From contig JALWRZ010000001.1 in NCBI GenBank assembly GCA_026993785.1, positions 41,559 to 101,185 on the forward strand: a stretch of DNA of 59,627 nucleotides, read 5' to 3'. Positions 12,714-46,694 of the stretch are shown here, piece after piece. Source of the DNA: DHVE2 group archaeon (GTDB lineage Archaea; Thermoplasmatota; Thermoplasmata; Thermoplasmatales; Aciduliprofundaceae). The translations under genes were made by a program, and so were the position numbers. Position 1 is the first letter of the stretch. Every line of letters begins with the position of its first letter. Under the pieces are notes generated by a model that saw nothing but the letters and a program-made list of their open reading frames with translations, was not told where the DNA came from and did not search any database.

Positions 12714-12977
12714 TTAGAATATACCCATTCTCATACCTACCTCTTCCGCACTGTATTCCTTAGCAAGCTTAACTATGGCCTTCTTCCCATAGCGCGTTAT
12801 GTAGGTATTAACCTTCTCAACCTTCACATCAAACAGCTTTTCCACAGCATGCTTTATCTGTGTCTTTGTTGCACTTCTCCTCACAATGAATGTAAGCTTG
12901 TTCTCCTTCTCAATCATAAGCAGAGATTTTTCTGTAACATAGGGCTTGATTATCACTTCGTTGGGGTCAAAGGTCAC
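12714..12977 (-). CDS. rpl23: Large-subunit ribosomal protein uL23 (L23), GTG start
   Basis: L23 is the docking site for SRP and chaperones at the exit tunnel. The 87-residue product contains [20 protein letters not shown] at about residues 9-28. GAGGTG lies 6 nt before a GTG at 12977 that overlaps the rpl4 stop by 4 bases (GTGA). An earlier in-frame GTG belongs to the ribosome-binding site and would add three residues. Confidence 0.93.
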
Positions 12978-13738
12978 GCTTCCCACCTCCTTAACTCTTC
13001 TAAAGCACCTTCCGTGAACACAGTTAATCGACCTGCATGGGTGCCGGGGGCAAGAAGCTCTGCGTTCAATTCCCGTGGGGTGACTATATCCACCCCGGGC
13101 AGGTTTCTGACACCCTTCTCCACCTTCTCCTTGTTTTTCACCACGAAAAGTATGCTCTTCTTCCTTTTGTACCTGCGGCCGCGCATCTTGCCTTTACCAC
13201 CGCGGATCTTCTTCTCGCTTGCTCTCTCTATGTCTTCATAGAGACCTATCTTTTTAAGGGCTTCTATCACGTCTTTTACCTTGCTTAGTTCTTCAAACTT
13301 GTCCTCTATTACCACAGGCAAAGTTAACTCAAGATTGAATTTGTGACCCCTCTTTCTCACCATGACTTTATTCGCAGTCATGGACAATGCGCTGTACTTG
13401 GCCAACATACGAACCTTTTTGTTTAGTTTTCTCTCCCATACCTTTTCAACGAGAGGGGGGTGCCCCGCTCTGCCACCCCGGGTATTCGGGATGATCGCGC
13501 CCCTTGTGGTGTTCCCTATGCGGGGCACCATTTTGGAAATCCCGTGACCGGGACCAAGGGATTCAGCCACCCTCCGCATCCCGGCCATGGGATCCACACC
13601 ATGGGGTTGAACCCTGTTGAGCTGGAATACCCTAACCGCCTCCTTTATCAAATCTGGGCGATAGGGATAAGAGAAAACCTTGGGAAGCTCCACCTGACCC
13701 TTGATTCCGCCGTCCAATGTATAGATGTTCACGCGCAT
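12974..13738 (-). CDS. rpl4: Large-subunit ribosomal protein uL4 (L4)
   Basis: Archaeal/eukaryotic L4 of 254 residues. It has the extended exit-tunnel loop ([20 protein letters not shown] at about residues 70-89, then GGRAGHPP). L4 homologues often control their own operons by binding the leader RNA, which matters here because a folded leader precedes the preceding gene. Start ATG follows GGGGTG by 6 nt; the 3' end overlaps rpl23. Confidence 0.95.
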
Positions 13739-13741
13739 TTA

Positions 13742-14764
13742 TCACACCCCCATCTTGGATTGCAGAGATACATAGGTAATTTCGATGCTCTCCACATCTT
13801 CAAGCACCTGCCTAACGGGATCGCGGAACCTTACAAGGCGCTTTGCAGGTCCAGGAACGGAGCCATGAATGAGAACATAGGGATTCTTCACTACTCCATA
13901 ATGCGGGAATCCCCCTTCTGGAGTGATTTCCATGGCAAGCTTCTTCACTCCGTTTTCCTCCACAAAATCAACATATTTGATGACCCTCTTATTGTACTCC
14001 GTTCTCTGGTGATAACCCGTCTGTCCAGCCTGCGGAACGGTATAACGGACCCAGTCTGGGTGCCAGGGACCCAAGGTGCCTATCATGCGGCGATGCTTCC
14101 TGTTCTTGTGGCTCAGCAACTTCACTCCAAATCTCTTCACGTGTCCCTGAAATCCTTTGCCCTTGGTGACGGCGATGACGTCCACAAACTTGCCCTCAGT
14201 CTTGAAATCACTGAATTTTATTTCCTTGCCCAGAAGATTCAGAGCGTATTCTTTTCTCTCTTCTACAGTGCCTCCCCCAACTCTAATCTCCATAATATCC
14301 GGAGCTTTCTTGGGGATACCGCTCACAAGCTTGGGTTGCGTGTGCACTATGAGCCTGACTTCTTCAATATCCCCTTTTATTCTTCCCAGGGCCTCCTCCT
14401 TCTTGTATTCTTTAGGTAATGGAAACCTTCGAGCCAATTCCTTATCAAGATTCTCATCCCATACCTCACCGATGCTCTTTAATCCGTACATATTCCTCTC
14501 ATAGAACCTCACACCGGCCACCTTCATGGGAGGGACTTCTATCACAGTAACAGGGGTCCAAATCTCCTGTCCCGCCGTGGTCGTATGCTTTCTCCAATCT
14601 ATGGTAAACACGTGAGTCATTCCTGCCTTGTAGCCGGCGAAGCCCTGGATGCGGGGTCCCTCATCTATCTCAGGCCAAGTCCTAATTCGCGGTACTATAC
14701 TCTTCGCTCTTTTTCTCGGATAATAGGCCATAGAGCCTCTTCTAGGATGATGCGCACTTCCCAT
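13742..14764 (-). CDS. rpl3: Large-subunit ribosomal protein uL3 (L3), first gene of the operon
   Basis: L3 helps initiate large-subunit assembly and reaches to the peptidyl-transferase centre. The 340-residue archaeal form begins MGSAHHPRRGSMAYYPRKRA and carries VTKGKGFQGHVKRFGVK at about residues 186-202. The ATG at 14764 follows GAGGTG (14771-14776) by 6 nt; the GTG of that site is in frame but rejected. It is the first gene of a run of at least 27 genes down to base 1 and is preceded by a structured leader and a TATA box. Confidence 0.95.
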   Translation of the reverse strand: MGSAHHPRRGSMAYYPRKRAKSIVPRIRTWPEIDEGPRIQGFAGYKAGMTHVFTIDWRKHTTTAGQEIWTPVTVIEVPPMKVAGVRFYERNMYGLKSIGEVWDENLDKELARRFPLPKEYKKEEALGRIKGDIEEVRLIVHTQPKLVSGIPKKAPDIMEIRVGGGTVEERKEYALNLLGKEIKFSDFKTEGKFVDVIAVTKGKGFQGHVKRFGVKLLSHKNRKHRRMIGTLGPWHPDWVRYTVPQAGQTGYHQRTEYNKRVIKYVDFVEENGVKKLAMEITPEGGFPHYGVVKNPYVLIHGSVPGPAKRLVRFRDPVRQVLEDVESIEITYVSLQSKMGV

Positions 14765-14778
14765 ATCTTTCACCTCGA

Positions 14779-14873
14779 ATCAGCCGTGACGCCTTTTATG
14801 CACCCCAAAACCTACTTGGGATGCATCATGGGCTGCCCCAATTTTTGGGCTAAGCCCTTGGCGTCTGGCTAAT
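14779..14873 (-). promoter_or_regulatory. Predicted three-way-junction RNA leader of the rpl3 operon
   Basis: Read on the minus strand, this 95-nt segment lies between the predicted transcription start (about 14880) and the rpl3 ribosome-binding site (14771-14776). P1 pairs 14867-14873 with 14779-14785 (7 bp) and 14860-14865 with 14788-14793 (6 bp), separated by a 1x2 internal loop. P2 pairs 14854-14857 with 14830-14833 and 14847-14850 with 14835-14838. P3 pairs 14816-14826 with 14798-14808 (11 bp including one G-U) with a 7-nt loop. Junction linkers are AA, AUG and AAAA. A ribosomal-protein autoregulatory leader is the simplest reading, but the ligand is not known. Confidence 0.7.
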
Positions 14874-14900
14874 CTCTCTTGGCTCCCCATAACGATATTT

Positions 14901-14910
14901 AATATTTAAA
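14901..14910 (-). promoter_or_regulatory. TATA box of the rpl3 ribosomal operon
   Basis: The minus strand reads TTTAAATATT, a good archaeal TATA element. With the usual spacing of about 26 nt, transcription would begin near 14880, just upstream of the folded leader. Confidence 0.65.
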
Positions 14911-14920
14911 GAATTCGCCT

Positions 14921-17721: not shown

Positions 17722-17830
17722 GGGCCCGTGGGGTAGTCTGGATATCCTGGAGGCCTCCGGAAGGAAACTTATCGCAGATGTAGTACTTTGGAGAGAGCCT
17801 TTGACCCGGGTTCGAATCCCGGCGGGCCCG
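17722..17830 (+). tRNA. tRNA-Arg (anticodon CCG) with intron
   Basis: Acceptor GGGCCCG (17722-17728) pairs with CGGGCCC (17823-17829), discriminator G at 17830. The D arm, the T arm with GGTTCGAATCC, and the anticodon loop C-T-CCG-G-A are complete. The intron is 17761-17795 (35 nt) after position 37; exon helix GAGGC/GCCTT and central helix CTCC/GGAG form a BHB, but the intron-side helix is weak, so the motif is relaxed. No CCA is encoded. A TATA-like AT-run lies at 17681-17691, and a T-run (CTTTTT) follows as terminator. Confidence 0.93.
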
Positions 17831-17852: not shown

Positions 17853-20800
17853 CATTCAATCCCACCATGGTCCGATTCTAACATTGTCCCATTTGTCTCC
17901 ACTGTAATATGATAATCACCATTTCAATCCCACCATAGTCCGATTCTAACATAAGTTTACCATTACTATTTATGAAGTAATAAACAGATTTCAATCCCAC
18001 CATGGTCCGATTCTAACTTTATTACATCACTAACTTTCACCTTACCACCCTCCTGTTTTCAATCCCACCATGGTCCGATTCTAACTCTTCTCCGCCCATC
18101 TTTGGATGGCGAAAATCTGATTCTTTTCAATCCCACCATGGTCCGATTCTAACAATCCAGATAAAAAATACAATAAGCATGGTAACTACATTTTCAATCC
18201 CACCATGGTCCGATTCTAACACCCTGCGCATCGCCCTCACCTCACTTCACGAGGTACTTTTCAATCCCACCATGGTCCGATTCTAACTGCTGCGCACTTC
18301 GTAGGTTTTGTTGCCTATCTTTACTTTCAATCCCACCATGGTCCGATTCTAACTTCCATGCAGTTATGAACTCACCTTTATTGAACTCGACCAACCTTTC
18401 AATCCCACCATGGTCCGATTCTAACTAAGGGGTGATGAAAATGAAAAAGTTAATAGCAATAAGTCTTTCAATCCCACCATGGTCCGATTCTAACTATCTG
18501 TCAATGCCTGGATCTCATAAATGTTCAATTCTGCTTTCAATCCCACCATGGTCCGATTCTAACTGCATTAGCTAAAAACGACGCAGGCAGTGCATACGAC
18601 TTCTTTCAATCCCACCATGGTCCGATTCTAACTTGAAAAGTGCCGAGATGACATCGCCGAATTTGGGACTTTCAATCCCACCATGGTCCGATTCTAACAA
18701 GGGAGCCAGCAACTCCTGACGAGGCGAGAAAGATTCTCTTTCAATCCCACCATGGTCCGATTCTAACCATAGAGCTTCGTTTTCTTTATATCGCCGTAAT
18801 CCTCTTTCAATCCCACCATGGTCCGATTCTAACCCTGTATGCGCTTCCAGGTTCACCAGATCCGGCTTTACTTTCAATCCCACCATGGTCCGATTCTAAC
18901 AAGCTCTATCTCGCCGATCTCTCTAAGCAACTTTGTCACTTTCAATCCCACCATGGTCCGATTCTAACCACATCTTTGGCGTTTCTGAGAACATAGTAGA
19001 GTTCCCTTTCAATCCCACCATGGTCCGATTCTAACCCTTGCTAAGCTTGAGATTGTAATCCTTTATTGTCTTCTTTCAATCCCACCATGGTCCGATTCTA
19101 ACGGCGTGGACAGGACTCGATACAGGAGATTATTTCAATTTCTTTCAATCCCACCATGGTCCGATTCTAACGGGAATGTTTTGAATATTTATCGTTGCGC
19201 TTGTGCCGTCTTTCAATCCCACCATGGTCCGATTCTAACGGGCCCGCTTGACCTCATCCAGGGAGTAATAATCCACCTTTCAATCCCACCATGGTCCGAT
19301 TCTAACTAGACAAAACGAGATTTGCCACCTTTGCCCTCTTCTACTTTCAATCCCACCATGGTCCGATTCTAACTTACCTTACCTTTGAATTCGACATATA
19401 TGACCATTATACCTTTCAATCCCACCATGGTCCGATTCTAACACTTTCCGTTTTAGGTGCTTGTTCTTGAACACCTGACTTTCAATCCCACCATGGTCCG
19501 ATTCTAACCTGAGATGCTTTTTTATTATCATAGTTACCTCCTCTTGCTTTCAATCCCACCATGGTCCGATTCTAACACTATCTCAAAGCCCGAAAATGTG
19601 ATATTAGAGAAAATCTTTCAATCCCACCATGGTCCGATTCTAACATATAGTGGCTTATTCAAGACAATAGTTATAATTTATAGCTTTCAATCCCACCATG
19701 GTCCGATTCTAACACTCTCCAACACGCCAACCATAAGCGGTAGTTTCAGCCTTTCAATCCCACCATGGTCCGATTCTAACATAAGATAGAGAATAACACA
19801 ATTACAGAGGTGCTTATGTTCTTTCAATCCCACCATGGTCCGATTCTAACATTGTGGAGCTAGAGATTTTGCGGGTGAAGCATCCAGACTTTCAATCCCA
19901 CCATGGTCCGATTCTAACGATACACAAATCGGATAAGAGAGAAGAAGCAATCAATCCTTTCAATCCCACCATGGTCCGATTCTAACCATTAGAACAATTC
20001 TCTTCTTTGATGTTACACGTTTCCTTTCAATCCCACCATGGTCCGATTCTAACAAAAAACTCTAACGGCGAAAAAACGAGTTTGCGGTTATCTTTCAATC
20101 CCACCATGGTCCGATTCTAACTTTCATAGAGAGTGATTATCATCTTCCTTACTTCATCCTTTCAATCCCACCATGGTCCGATTCTAACTCGGTACAATCG
20201 AAGATTTTGGAATAAAAATAGACTTTCAATCCCACCATGGTCCGATTCTAACGGCCCAGGTGTGAAATGTTATGCCCCTGGCCCTTATCTTTCAATCCCA
20301 CCATGGTCCGATTCTAACTGAGGAAGGCTTTGATGTCCTTGGCTTTTGTTCATTCTCTTTCAATCCCACCATGGTCCGATTCTAACCGTTGATAATCATC
20401 ATGGCCTATCTCGGGATATTCCCTTTCAATCCCACCATGGTCCGATTCTAACTTCAAATAACCATACACCCTCAAGAACATATCAACTATACTTTCAATC
20501 CCACCATGGTCCGATTCTAACTATCCCACTAAAAGTGTCACAATCTACATAAACCGTTTCTTTCAATCCCACCATGGTCCGATTCTAACAAGAAAGGAAA
20601 AAGGTTTTACTTTTCTCTTATATCCTAAGCTTTCAATCCCACCATGGTCCGATTCTAACAAGCTTATGCCAAAAAGCATGGCCTAACTCACCGCATTCTT
20701 TCAATCCCACCATGGTCCGATTCTAACCCCAACGGTTGCCCTTATCATGTTACTATCCAATTTCTTTCAATCCCACCATGGTCCGATTCTAACTATCTCC

Positions 20801-21480
20801 TTTATAGAATCTCCAACATTATGTCCAGAAACTTTCAATCCCACCATGGTCCGATTCTAACAACTATCTCAAAGCCCGAAAATGTAGAGCTGGAGAAAAT
20901 CTTTCAATCCCACCATGGTCCGATTCTAACCACGACGGAGATCGTAGCGATGGCATACAAACCGCCCTACCTTTCAATCCCACCATGGTCCGATTCTAAC
21001 TTCTGCAGATTGCGAAGATTCCACCGTCACAGTGGTACGCTTTCAATCCCACCATGGTCCGATTCTAACGGGGCATTATTCTGATTAGATGCAAGTAGTG
21101 TTCCATACTTTCAATCCCACCATGGTCCGATTCTAACTTTATAATGCCAGAAAAGTAAGCAACATAACCCAAAATATCTTTCAATCCCACCATGGTCCGA
21201 TTCTAACAAGATTTTCCCGATATGGACTTGGGCGAGCTTGAGAATCCTTTCAATCCCACCATGGTCCGATTCTAACACACCTTCCATCCTTCTCTCATTG
21301 CTTTTTTTAACTGCCTTTCAATCCCACCATGGTCCGATTCTAACGGTGACCCAAATATAAATTATCCTGTAGTAGCCATCGTCTTTCAATCCCACCATGG
21401 TCCGATTCTAACTATGCTACAGCATATGCAAAGCTATTTATAAGTATAATCTTTCAATCCCACCATGGTCCGATTCTAAC
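17853..21480 (-). CRISPR. Type I-B CRISPR array, 54 repeats and 53 spacers
   Basis: The 30-nt repeat reads on the plus strand CTTTCAATCCCACC, then ATGG, then TCCGATTCTAAC. On the minus strand it begins GTTAGAATC and ends ATTGAAAG, the usual orientation that yields an 8-nt crRNA tag. Repeats lie from 17853-17882 to 21451-21480; spacers are 34-42 nt. Decay is confined to the low-coordinate end: the first repeat has a changed second base, the second has CATAG for CATGG, and repeats 2-7 differ in the first plus-strand base. The trailer is therefore at 17853 and the leader at 21481. Two spacers (19577-19614 and 20862-20900) are near-duplicates. Short ORFs inside the array are repeat artefacts. Confidence 0.98.
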
Positions 21481-21654
21481 CAAGGGAATATAATAGAAAG
21501 AGATAGATAAAAATTTCGTCGAATAAAGACTCTGTGGGCATCGATTTTATTCCATTCACATTATTTTTGCAACAGATCCCCGGTAACGCCTTCCATTTAT
21601 AAAGATCCGTTGCAGGATTCAGAAAAGGGCAAGAAATAAAGAAAAAGAAAAAGA
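21481..21654 (-). promoter_or_regulatory. CRISPR leader with two TATA-like boxes and an inverted repeat
   Basis: AT-rich region between cas2 and the youngest repeat. On the minus strand, TATA-like elements lie at 21595-21603 (TTTATAAAT) and 21506-21515; the second would start transcription about 6 nt before the first repeat. Arms TGCAACAGATC (21568-21578) and GATCCGTTGCA (21604-21614) form an inverted repeat with one mismatch around the upstream TATA box, a candidate site for adaptation or regulatory proteins. Confidence 0.7.
21631..21654 (-). terminator. T-rich terminator after cas2
   Basis: On the minus strand the bases just after the cas2 stop form several T-runs separated by single bases. 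This suits archaeal oligo-T termination of cas4-cas1-cas2 before the separate leader promoter. Confidence 0.45.
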
Positions 21655-21918
21655 TTAAATCACATTCCCGAGTTCAACCTTGGGCTCTCCCAGCTCAACT
21701 CGCTTCAGGTATTTTTCATCTCGCAGAATATAGAAAATCACATAATCCTCGTCCTCATTGATAAGTTCTTTCACGCCCATTTTCACACGTTCAAACTCTG
21801 CCTTGGTCAATTCGCCCTCAAAAACCGAATTTTGCTTCCAGAGCATGAATTGCTTCAGAAATTTTCTGACTGCATCGATCCTCTCCACAGCGATGTCATA
21901 AACAGCTATTACATACAT
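21655..21918 (-). CDS. cas2: CRISPR adaptation protein Cas2
   Basis: Cas2 forms the dimeric scaffold of the Cas1-Cas2 integrase that inserts new spacers next to the leader. The 87-residue product begins MYVIAVYDIAVERIDAVRKF, the family ferredoxin-like N-terminus with the conserved Asp at residue 8. The ATG at 21918 follows the cas1 stop by one base and a GGTGG site. An upstream in-frame Met would lie within cas1 and was rejected. Confidence 0.93.
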   Translation of the reverse strand: MYVIAVYDIAVERIDAVRKFLKQFMLWKQNSVFEGELTKAEFERVKMGVKELINEDEDYVIFYILRDEKYLKRVELGEPKVELGNVI

Positions 21919-21919
21919 C

Positions 21920-22891
21920 CTACCACCACGCAATGAGGGGACGGTATTCTTCCGCGCCCAGAACATGCTTTATCAGTTTGTAGCACTCAATCCTTATCAA
22001 CCTGCGCATGGATACTTTCTTCCCCAATTTCCTATGCATAATGGTGCTGCGAAGCTTTTCATCATATTCCTGGAGAAATTTCCTCTTCCCTGAATCGCTG
22101 AGCAGCACGCTGCTGAGCTCTTTTCTGAAATCTGAGTCACGAAGCATGTTCTTGCGCACAAGTTTCATAATAATTCTGTCCACAATTATAGGCTTGAATA
22201 TCTCAGCAATATCAAGGGAGAGGGAAAATCTCCGCTCGGAAGGTTCATGGAGATACGAAATCGTGGGATTGAGTTGTGTGTTATAAATCTCGGAGAGAAC
22301 AGTGGAATACACAAGCATATTTCCAAAACTTAGCAACGCATTCATCTTATTCGTAGGTGGCTGCCTCTCCCTTCTGAGCATCTTAAATTCCTCGGGTACA
22401 AGAGAGTCCATTGCTTGATAGTACTTCTCCCTTATTTTTCCTTCAATCTCCATCACTTGGGGTATGCTCTGCTGTGCCCATATTCTATCGCGCAGAGATT
22501 CGATCTCCGAGGACTCGCATTTCCATCGCTTGAGATTTCTAACAATGTTTCCTGCAGCTCCATCCACGAATTTCTTGGCAAGCAGTAATCTCTTCTCCTT
22601 ATCCAGATAATGGGCCACCTGATTAACGAGCACGGTGCCCGATACCAGTTTCTCCCGGGGATATAGAGATGCCTGGTAGAATCCATATTTGTTGAAGAAA
22701 TGCACCACAATGCCTTTCTCCGCGAAGTAGGAAATTACCTGCGAGGTGAGCGTGACCTTCCCGTACGCATATATATCCTCAATTTTGTTCACGGGTAACA
22801 ATCTCTTCTCTCCACCGGCCTCTATGAAGTACACGGTATTCTCATCCCTTACTAACTTGCCATGCTTCGTTATATACACACTATTCTTCAT
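21920..22891 (-). CDS. cas1: CRISPR integrase Cas1
   Basis: Metal-dependent integrase of spacer acquisition. The 323-residue product starts MKNSVYITKHGKLVRDENTV. It has the N-terminal beta domain and helical catalytic domain, with NALLSFGNMLVYS at about residues 190-202 and LHEPSERRFSLSLDIAEIFKP at 223-243 carrying the conserved His and Asp; the sequence fits the type I-B group. The ATG at 22891 is spaced 5 nt from GGTGG and overlaps cas4 by 11 bases; an upstream Met would extend too far into cas4. Confidence 0.94.
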   Translation of the reverse strand: MKNSVYITKHGKLVRDENTVYFIEAGGEKRLLPVNKIEDIYAYGKVTLTSQVISYFAEKGIVVHFFNKYGFYQASLYPREKLVSGTVLVNQVAHYLDKEKRLLLAKKFVDGAAGNIVRNLKRWKCESSEIESLRDRIWAQQSIPQVMEIEGKIREKYYQAMDSLVPEEFKMLRRERQPPTNKMNALLSFGNMLVYSTVLSEIYNTQLNPTISYLHEPSERRFSLSLDIAEIFKPIIVDRIIMKLVRKNMLRDSDFRKELSSVLLSDSGKRKFLQEYDEKLRSTIMHRKLGKKVSMRRLIRIECYKLIKHVLGAEEYRPLIAWW

Positions 22892-23387
22892 CCTCACCAC
22901 CAAAGCAGAACTCATAATATGCACATTTTTTGCATATACCCTTTCTTTTAGGCAGCGGCATGGGACCCTTAACTATCCTTTCAATGTCACTTAGCGCTGC
23001 CTCAATTTCACTCTCATCTTCCTGGGTGAGATGCACATATTCCCTTCTTCTTGCCTTGGGGTAGTCAATCACACCGATGGCATCTATCCCCCTCTTCTTC
23101 AGATAATAGAGGTAATAGAGAACCTGCATCCTGTGCGCCTTCTCCATCTTTCTGCTCTTCTTTATCTCGTGCACCTCTATTTTCTCACCTCGCCTAACAA
23201 AATCGATGGCTATATCCTCAATCTGCACCTCCCTGTGGCCTCGATAGGCAGTTTCGTGGAGCAGCTTGCCAAGAGATACAAGCTCGCTCTCCTTCTCCAT
23301 GGTTATATCGTGGGAAAAGAGCCAGAGTTTTGTGGGACAGATATAATAATAGGCGACCTTCACCCCGGTGATGTGCATCTCCTCCAT
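22881..23387 (-). CDS. cas4: CRISPR adaptation nuclease Cas4
   Basis: Iron-sulfur exonuclease of the RecB fold that trims and orients prespacers beside Cas1-Cas2. The 168-residue product has CPTKLW at about residues 17-22, a PD-(D/E)xK-type core with HEIKKSRKM near 73-81, and the C-terminal CKKCAYYEFC at about 152-161; with the N-terminal Cys these form the four-cysteine cluster. It is first of a cas4-cas1-cas2 unit; TATA-like elements lie at 23411-23430 on the minus strand. Confidence 0.93.
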   Translation of the reverse strand: MEEMHITGVKVAYYYICPTKLWLFSHDITMEKESELVSLGKLLHETAYRGHREVQIEDIAIDFVRRGEKIEVHEIKKSRKMEKAHRMQVLYYLYYLKKRGIDAIGVIDYPKARRREYVHLTQEDESEIEAALSDIERIVKGPMPLPKRKGICKKCAYYEFCFGGEDEE

Positions 23388-46576: not shown

Positions 46577-46694
46577 TCCCGGCTCCCGGATTCGAACCGG
46601 GGACCTGCGGATCTCTGCTGAGCGGCGCTTATGCCCACACCTGGGCATATCCCAACTACAGTCCGCCGCTCTAGCCAGACTGAGCTAAGCCGGG
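46577..46694 (-). tRNA. tRNA-Tyr (anticodon GTA) with intron
   Basis: Acceptor CCCGGCT/AGCCGGG with the archaeal Tyr-specific C1-G72 pair and discriminator A. D arm GCTC...GAGC, anticodon stem GCGGA/TCCGC, loop C-T-GTA-G-A, T arm CCCGG-TTCGAAT-CCGGG. The intron 46613-46655 (43 nt) follows position 37 and contains an internal 8-bp hairpin. BHB: central helix CTGT/GCAG, bulges AGT and AGA, intron helix TGGG/CTCA. TATA is TTATATACC on the minus strand at 46717-46727. Confidence 0.96.

Follow-up and report, generated by a model that had tools for sequence, protein, structure and literature searches.

The means by which archaea keep the products of their largest ribosomal operon in balance are an open question, and to our knowledge only a few cis-regulatory RNAs are known in these organisms. 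The question is raised directly by a locus in a 59,627-nt stretch of DNA from a DHVE2 group archaeon (here called the window, at its full length), where a sequence-only reading had proposed that the 95 nt in front of the ribosomal operon starting with rpl3 form a three-way-junction RNA leader. The analysis below asks whether this RNA is real, how widely it occurs and what it may do.

The leader RNA and its operon

The proposed boundaries, positions 14779 to 14873, were borne out, but the strand had been left unstated; as the ribosomal operon lies on the minus strand, the RNA is the minus strand read from 14873 to 14779. This strand folds into a three-way junction with a minimum free energy of −51.9 kcal/mol, compared with −28.4 ± 3.2 kcal/mol for its dinucleotide shuffles (n = 200; z −7.4), none of which folded as well. 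The plus strand of the region folds too, less stably (−44.0 kcal/mol, z −5.2). A stem P1 of 7+6 bp was recovered as proposed, together with the AA, AUG and AAAA linkers between the stems, whereas P2 has 5+4 rather than 4+4 bp and P3 12 rather than 11 bp in the fold.

All features of the leader lie on the minus strand. The outer helix of P1 pairs AUUAGCC (14867–14873) with GGCUGAU (14779–14785), and its inner helix pairs GACGCC (14860–14865) with GGCGUC (14788–14793); the two are interrupted by a single A (14866) opposite AC (14786–14787). P2 (14830–14857) is a hairpin with a GGG/CCC base and a 2-nt bulge on its 5' side, and P3 (14798–14826) is a 12-bp hairpin with a U-rich 3' side of the loop. 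Each helix is backed by the fold and by covariation in related genomes: the inner P1 helix exchanges GC, UA and AU at its first pair and GC and AU at its fourth, and all eight modelled pairs of P3 covary.

P1 ends 2 nt from the Shine-Dalgarno sequence GAGGUGA (14770–14776, minus strand), as had been stated; this motif is complementary to UCACCUC at the 16S 3' end (...GGAUCACCUCC) of four relatives. The first gene, rpl3 (uL3; 13742–14764, minus strand; PF00297, E 3e-90), starts with the ATG at 14764 and is followed by rpl4 (uL4; 12974–13738, minus strand; PF00573), which encodes a candidate ligand. By Pfam assignment the first nine genes encode L3, L4, L23, L2, S19, L22, S3, L29 and RNase P p29. 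The nearest relatives by L3 sequence are DHVE2/Aciduliprofundum metagenome-assembled genomes (MAGs). The observation of a folded leader before rpl3 was confirmed.

Covariation, distribution and invariant core

The regions preceding rpl3 were collected from about 58 genomes belonging to the order. One covariance model, R1, was made from 28 of these regions aligned with MAFFT and given a structure by hand, and a second, R2, was built from 100 leaders. Both find the leader of the window (14776–14875, minus strand; R1 73.3 bits, E 1e-17; R2 69.9 bits) as the sole match in its genome, and no other covariance-model match in the window was significant. Three leader alignments, with 28, 43 and 74 members, and a combined set of 100 were used to assess covariation. 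In the combined set, both partners change in 20 of the 25 pairs, standard pairing holds in 90.1% of cells (30–44% when the partners are slid by 1–3 columns) and 602 cells are changed on both sides versus 193 in shuffles, with none of 500 shuffles reaching any of these measures. This alignment leans towards the structure because it was fitted to the model; an unfitted MAFFT alignment leads to the same conclusion, with 19 of 25 pairs supported and no shuffle among 500 doing as well. A lack of compensatory changes in the stems of relatives, which would have refuted the original proposal, was therefore not encountered. On the sense strand, G-U cells (170) outnumber A-C cells (74), which indicates that the mRNA strand is the one that folds. 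The element shares with ribosomal-protein leaders a conserved and covarying secondary structure, and its place upstream of ribosomal-protein genes on the same strand, also a property of such leaders, is observed directly.

The candidate is thus strongly supported by covariation, and it is widespread, being present in most of the Thermoplasmatota sampled. In the class, 200 genomes were scanned with R1 and 138 had a match (E ≤ 0.001), once per genome in all but one, which had two matches; over the phylum, R1 matched 168 and R2 184 of 243 genomes, R2 with a single match in each. The position of rpl3 was listed for 130 matches; in 129 of these the gene follows on the same strand after 5–145 nt, the sole exception being a match 7 nt from a contig end. 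By tblastn, L3 was found within 300 nt directly downstream in 65 of the 66 divergent loci fetched with flanks. Several genomes of the class without an R1 match carry the leader on direct reading (among L180–L188), so the genome counts are lower bounds, and incomplete MAGs depress them further. The leader occurs in closed genomes as well. No relative was found in viral contigs. Leader scans were confined to Thermoplasmatota among archaeal phyla, apart from one haloarchaeal operon; there, in the only outgroup examined, R2 gave no match, and only 4 nt separate rpl3 from the RNA methyltransferase gene that precedes it, leaving no room for a leader directly before rpl3. The only second copy seen (G221:C20:7-97) is a good match, 7 nt from its contig end, in a genome that also has a normal copy upstream of rpl3.

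Across 117 aligned leaders, one strand of P1 reads CC-A-nAC and the facing strand GUn-AC-GG. One flanking C-G pair and the loop bases AC are invariant (AC in 100%), and the opposing A is kept in 95–100%. P2 starts with GGG/CCC in 88–100% of these leaders and has the bulge A in 86–91%, whereas P3 varies freely in sequence, yet pairs wherever it is present. Family f12 lacks P3, giving a leader of 63–67 nt (L120, L121, L122, L148, L188) that keeps P1 and P2 with their invariant bases, and this loss points to P1 and P2 as the functional core. In family f3, A-C and C-A replace two inner P1 pairs, and the leader scores weakly with R1 and better with R2. The invariant unpaired bases are as expected of a binding site, which is suggested by the alignments alone, as there are no binding data. 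Neither a leader nor a model match was found in family f15 (L175–L179), where a TATA box lies roughly 45 nt before the rpl3 start codon; this family offers a natural experiment for leader loss. No leader was seen in genome G018 (family f2) either.

Two further pairings were considered and set aside. The P3 loop UUCUGG might pair with CCAGAC, but this was rejected, since in family f6 the P1 base becomes U and P3 shows no corresponding change. The Shine-Dalgarno GUGA could pair with UCAC of P1 in the window but not in f6, which has UAAC.

Position at the predicted transcript 5' end

A TATA box, TTTAAATA, lies at 14903–14910 (minus strand) and is preceded by a BRE-like CGAATTC (14911–14917, minus strand). 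It implies a transcription start near 14880, roughly 7 nt upstream of the 5' end given by the sequence-only reading; this remains an inference, as no start has been mapped. In most of 37 loci of the order, the leader is preceded by a TATA-like box that starts 27–40 nt before it. Other families were represented by 20 loci, of which 15 have such a box, starting 31–49 nt before the leader, and four of the remaining five have an uncounted sequence of the CATATA or CATAAA type in a comparable place. This spacing would put no more than about 20 nt between the predicted transcript start and the leader.

The distance from leader to start codon, by comparison, is not conserved and ranges from 5 to more than 200 nt, being 5–12 nt in the family of the window and in f6, 60–100 nt in most others and 204 nt in one. 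The closeness of P1 to the ribosome-binding site, to which a coupling of folding and rpl3 translation had been attached, is therefore a property of some families only, the general feature being the predicted transcript 5' end. Such variable spacing rules out one shared geometry for blocking the Shine-Dalgarno sequence, and direct masking fits the short-gap families only. The fixed 5'-end position set against the variable gap provides a means of testing whether archaeal leaders act on ribosome entry, elongation or decay.

Many of the long gaps between leader and rpl3 hold further hairpins. Such extra hairpins were seen in the 60–100 nt gaps of families f11 (L113–L119), f12 (L120–L122) and f47 (L159–L163), and f11 has a recurring GCGAGGTTAGCGAAGA..CCTCGC element in this gap that may be a second regulatory element.

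Proposed function, candidate ligands and known leaders

The reading of the element as an RNA leader is strongly supported, while its regulatory mechanism and ligand are inferred. Compensatory change throughout the phylum, invariant unpaired bases and a location essentially restricted to the rpl3 operon together resemble ribosomal-protein leaders (r-leaders), and we consider it likely that the RNA is a cis-acting r-leader of Thermoplasmatota through which an operon protein, most likely uL4 or uL3, exerts feedback, although no binding, transcript or expression data are available. According to this proposal, the leader would fold on transcription, at the start of the mRNA of this S10/spc-type operon, and when ribosomal proteins are in excess over rRNA, one operon protein, most likely uL4 or uL3, would bind it, presumably contacting both the P1 internal loop (A opposite AC) and, in P2, the bulge and the GGG/CCC base. 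With its 5' end occupied, the mRNA may then show lower expression of rpl3 and, by an inferred coupling, of the whole operon. In the short-gap families (that of the window and the Thermoplasmataceae-like f6), the complex would abut the Shine-Dalgarno sequence and keep the 30S subunit out; with gaps of 60–200 nt another route would be needed, possibly via spacer hairpins, early termination or mRNA decay. Against feedback stands family f15, which manages without the leader.

The identity of the ligand is a matter of judgement. L4 is the leading candidate, though short of an even chance, and is favoured by precedent, being the bacterial ligand and the proposed one in Archaeoglobi; L3, favoured by its proximity, and the other proteins taken together are each somewhat less probable than L4. 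Gene order was tried as a clue and fails to separate L3 from L4, since a comparison by eye places rpl4 directly 3' of rpl3 in the relatives whose positions were listed. The nearest gene is a poor guide to the ligand of an r-leader, according to published work, and every known r-leader binds a product of the genes it regulates (PMC7247131). A more far-reaching version, held only tentatively, is that the leader is phylum-wide and predates the split of the Thermoplasmatota classes, that no bacterial leader is known to use its ligand, which would be uL3 or a site that bridges two proteins, and that the leader, instead of masking the ribosome-binding site, works from the 5' end on transcription elongation or mRNA decay.

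Other explanations were weighed against feedback by an operon protein. The one that survives best, although improbable, is a structural 5' cap, a stable and perhaps constitutively protein-bound end that would shield the heavily used transcript from 5'-3' decay or aid ribosome loading without ribosomal-protein feedback. It would account for the constancy of the predicted transcript 5' end rather than of the start-codon distance, and for the high stability of the RNA alone, but a protective hairpin needs neither an invariant unpaired A and AC nor conserved bulge bases in P2, and would not need to be limited to a single place per genome. Somewhat less plausible still is a riboswitch-like leader that senses a ligand from outside the operon, such as another ribosomal protein, a metabolite or an ion. 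Eckert and Weinberg noted that some RNAs regulating ribosomal proteins may bind no ribosomal protein (PMC7247131), and a three-way junction with invariant loop bases would suit such a sensor; however, the RNA serves one operon only and is never found at a metabolic gene, and most of its invariant bases belong to a short break within a helix and not to a buried junction core.

The RNA could also be a Thermoplasmatota branch of the published L4-Archaeoglobi r-leader, a candidate archaeal leader upstream of rpl3-rpl4-rpl23-rpl2 (PMC7247131), with which it shares the start of the operon (rplC, rplD, rplW, rplB) and the domain of life. We regard this as quite unlikely: that motif does not extend beyond Archaeoglobi and its authors rate it borderline, the main text of the paper does not mention Thermoplasmata (PMC7247131), and searches of Rfam 15 that admitted E values as high as 10 for the window region and 5 for 20 loci matched none of its r-leader families, with the reservation that membership of L4-Archaeoglobi in that library is unconfirmed. 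Least of all can DNA operators or an incidental inverted repeat without an RNA role be entertained, for although inverted repeats covary as DNA too, the sense-strand excess of G-U over A-C cells, the placement downstream of the TATA box within the predicted transcript and the retention over the phylum of three nested helices in junction order, which operators would not be expected to show, all speak against them.

Contrary to the view that archaeal ribosomal-protein leaders are little known apart from the L1 type, two S15 leaders, an eL15 leader and the borderline L4-Archaeoglobi candidate were predicted in 2020 (PMC7247131), and autoregulation of L7Ae via a k-turn leader is established (PMC5539422, PMC6298567). 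The S15 and eL15 leaders are likewise conserved, covarying structures upstream of archaeal ribosomal-protein genes (PMC7247131), but they regulate few genes, rRNA mimicry has been proposed for them and no Rfam match links them to the Thermoplasmatota RNA. In a parallel to the role proposed for that RNA, the L7Ae leader controls a ribosomal protein via its own mRNA and adjoins the ribosome-binding site; its k-turn, however, is unstructured without protein (PMC5539422, PMC6298567). Since P1 is very stable without a ligand, a simple folding switch of the L7Ae kind is not evident. The leader also has no k-turn signature (a 3-nt bulge flanked by tandem sheared G-A pairs), the P1 loop being A opposite AC and the P2 bulge being followed by Watson-Crick pairs, mostly U-A, G-C and C-G. 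The bacterial S10-operon leader, for which L4 is the proven ligand, precedes the equivalent operon, but in the archaeal operon L3 comes first, and here too no Rfam r-leader model matches.

Mimicry of rRNA, frequent in r-leaders and not required of them, was also considered. The 23S rRNA of the source genome was not found, so rRNAs of four relatives were used, and no convincing match to their 16S or 23S emerged: R1 with filters off gave chance-level matches only (best E 1.3), and a scan for the C-A-/-AC-G loop found nothing conserved between species. By eye, the H18–H20 region of 23S, the L4 site, has GGG..CCC without the bulge pattern of P2, and no likeness is claimed.

This RNA is absent from Rfam 15, and the literature found contains no description of it, although an earlier mention is possible, as subscription literature and a 2017 motif survey were not covered. 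A new class of archaeal ribosomal-protein leader is the best reading, and because its small invariant core can be mutated, autoregulation of ribosomal proteins in archaea becomes directly testable.

Elsewhere in the window, regular repeats (read as ...LESDHGGIE / SIPPWSDSN... in the list of open reading frames) and then open reading frames occupy 18572–22924; those after the repeats resemble Cas2 (21655–21966) and Cas1 (21920–22924), consistent with a CRISPR array with adaptation genes. Two tRNA matches, at 17722–17830 (plus strand, 109 nt) and 46577–46694 (minus strand, 118 nt), exceed the length of a plain tRNA and thus probably contain introns.
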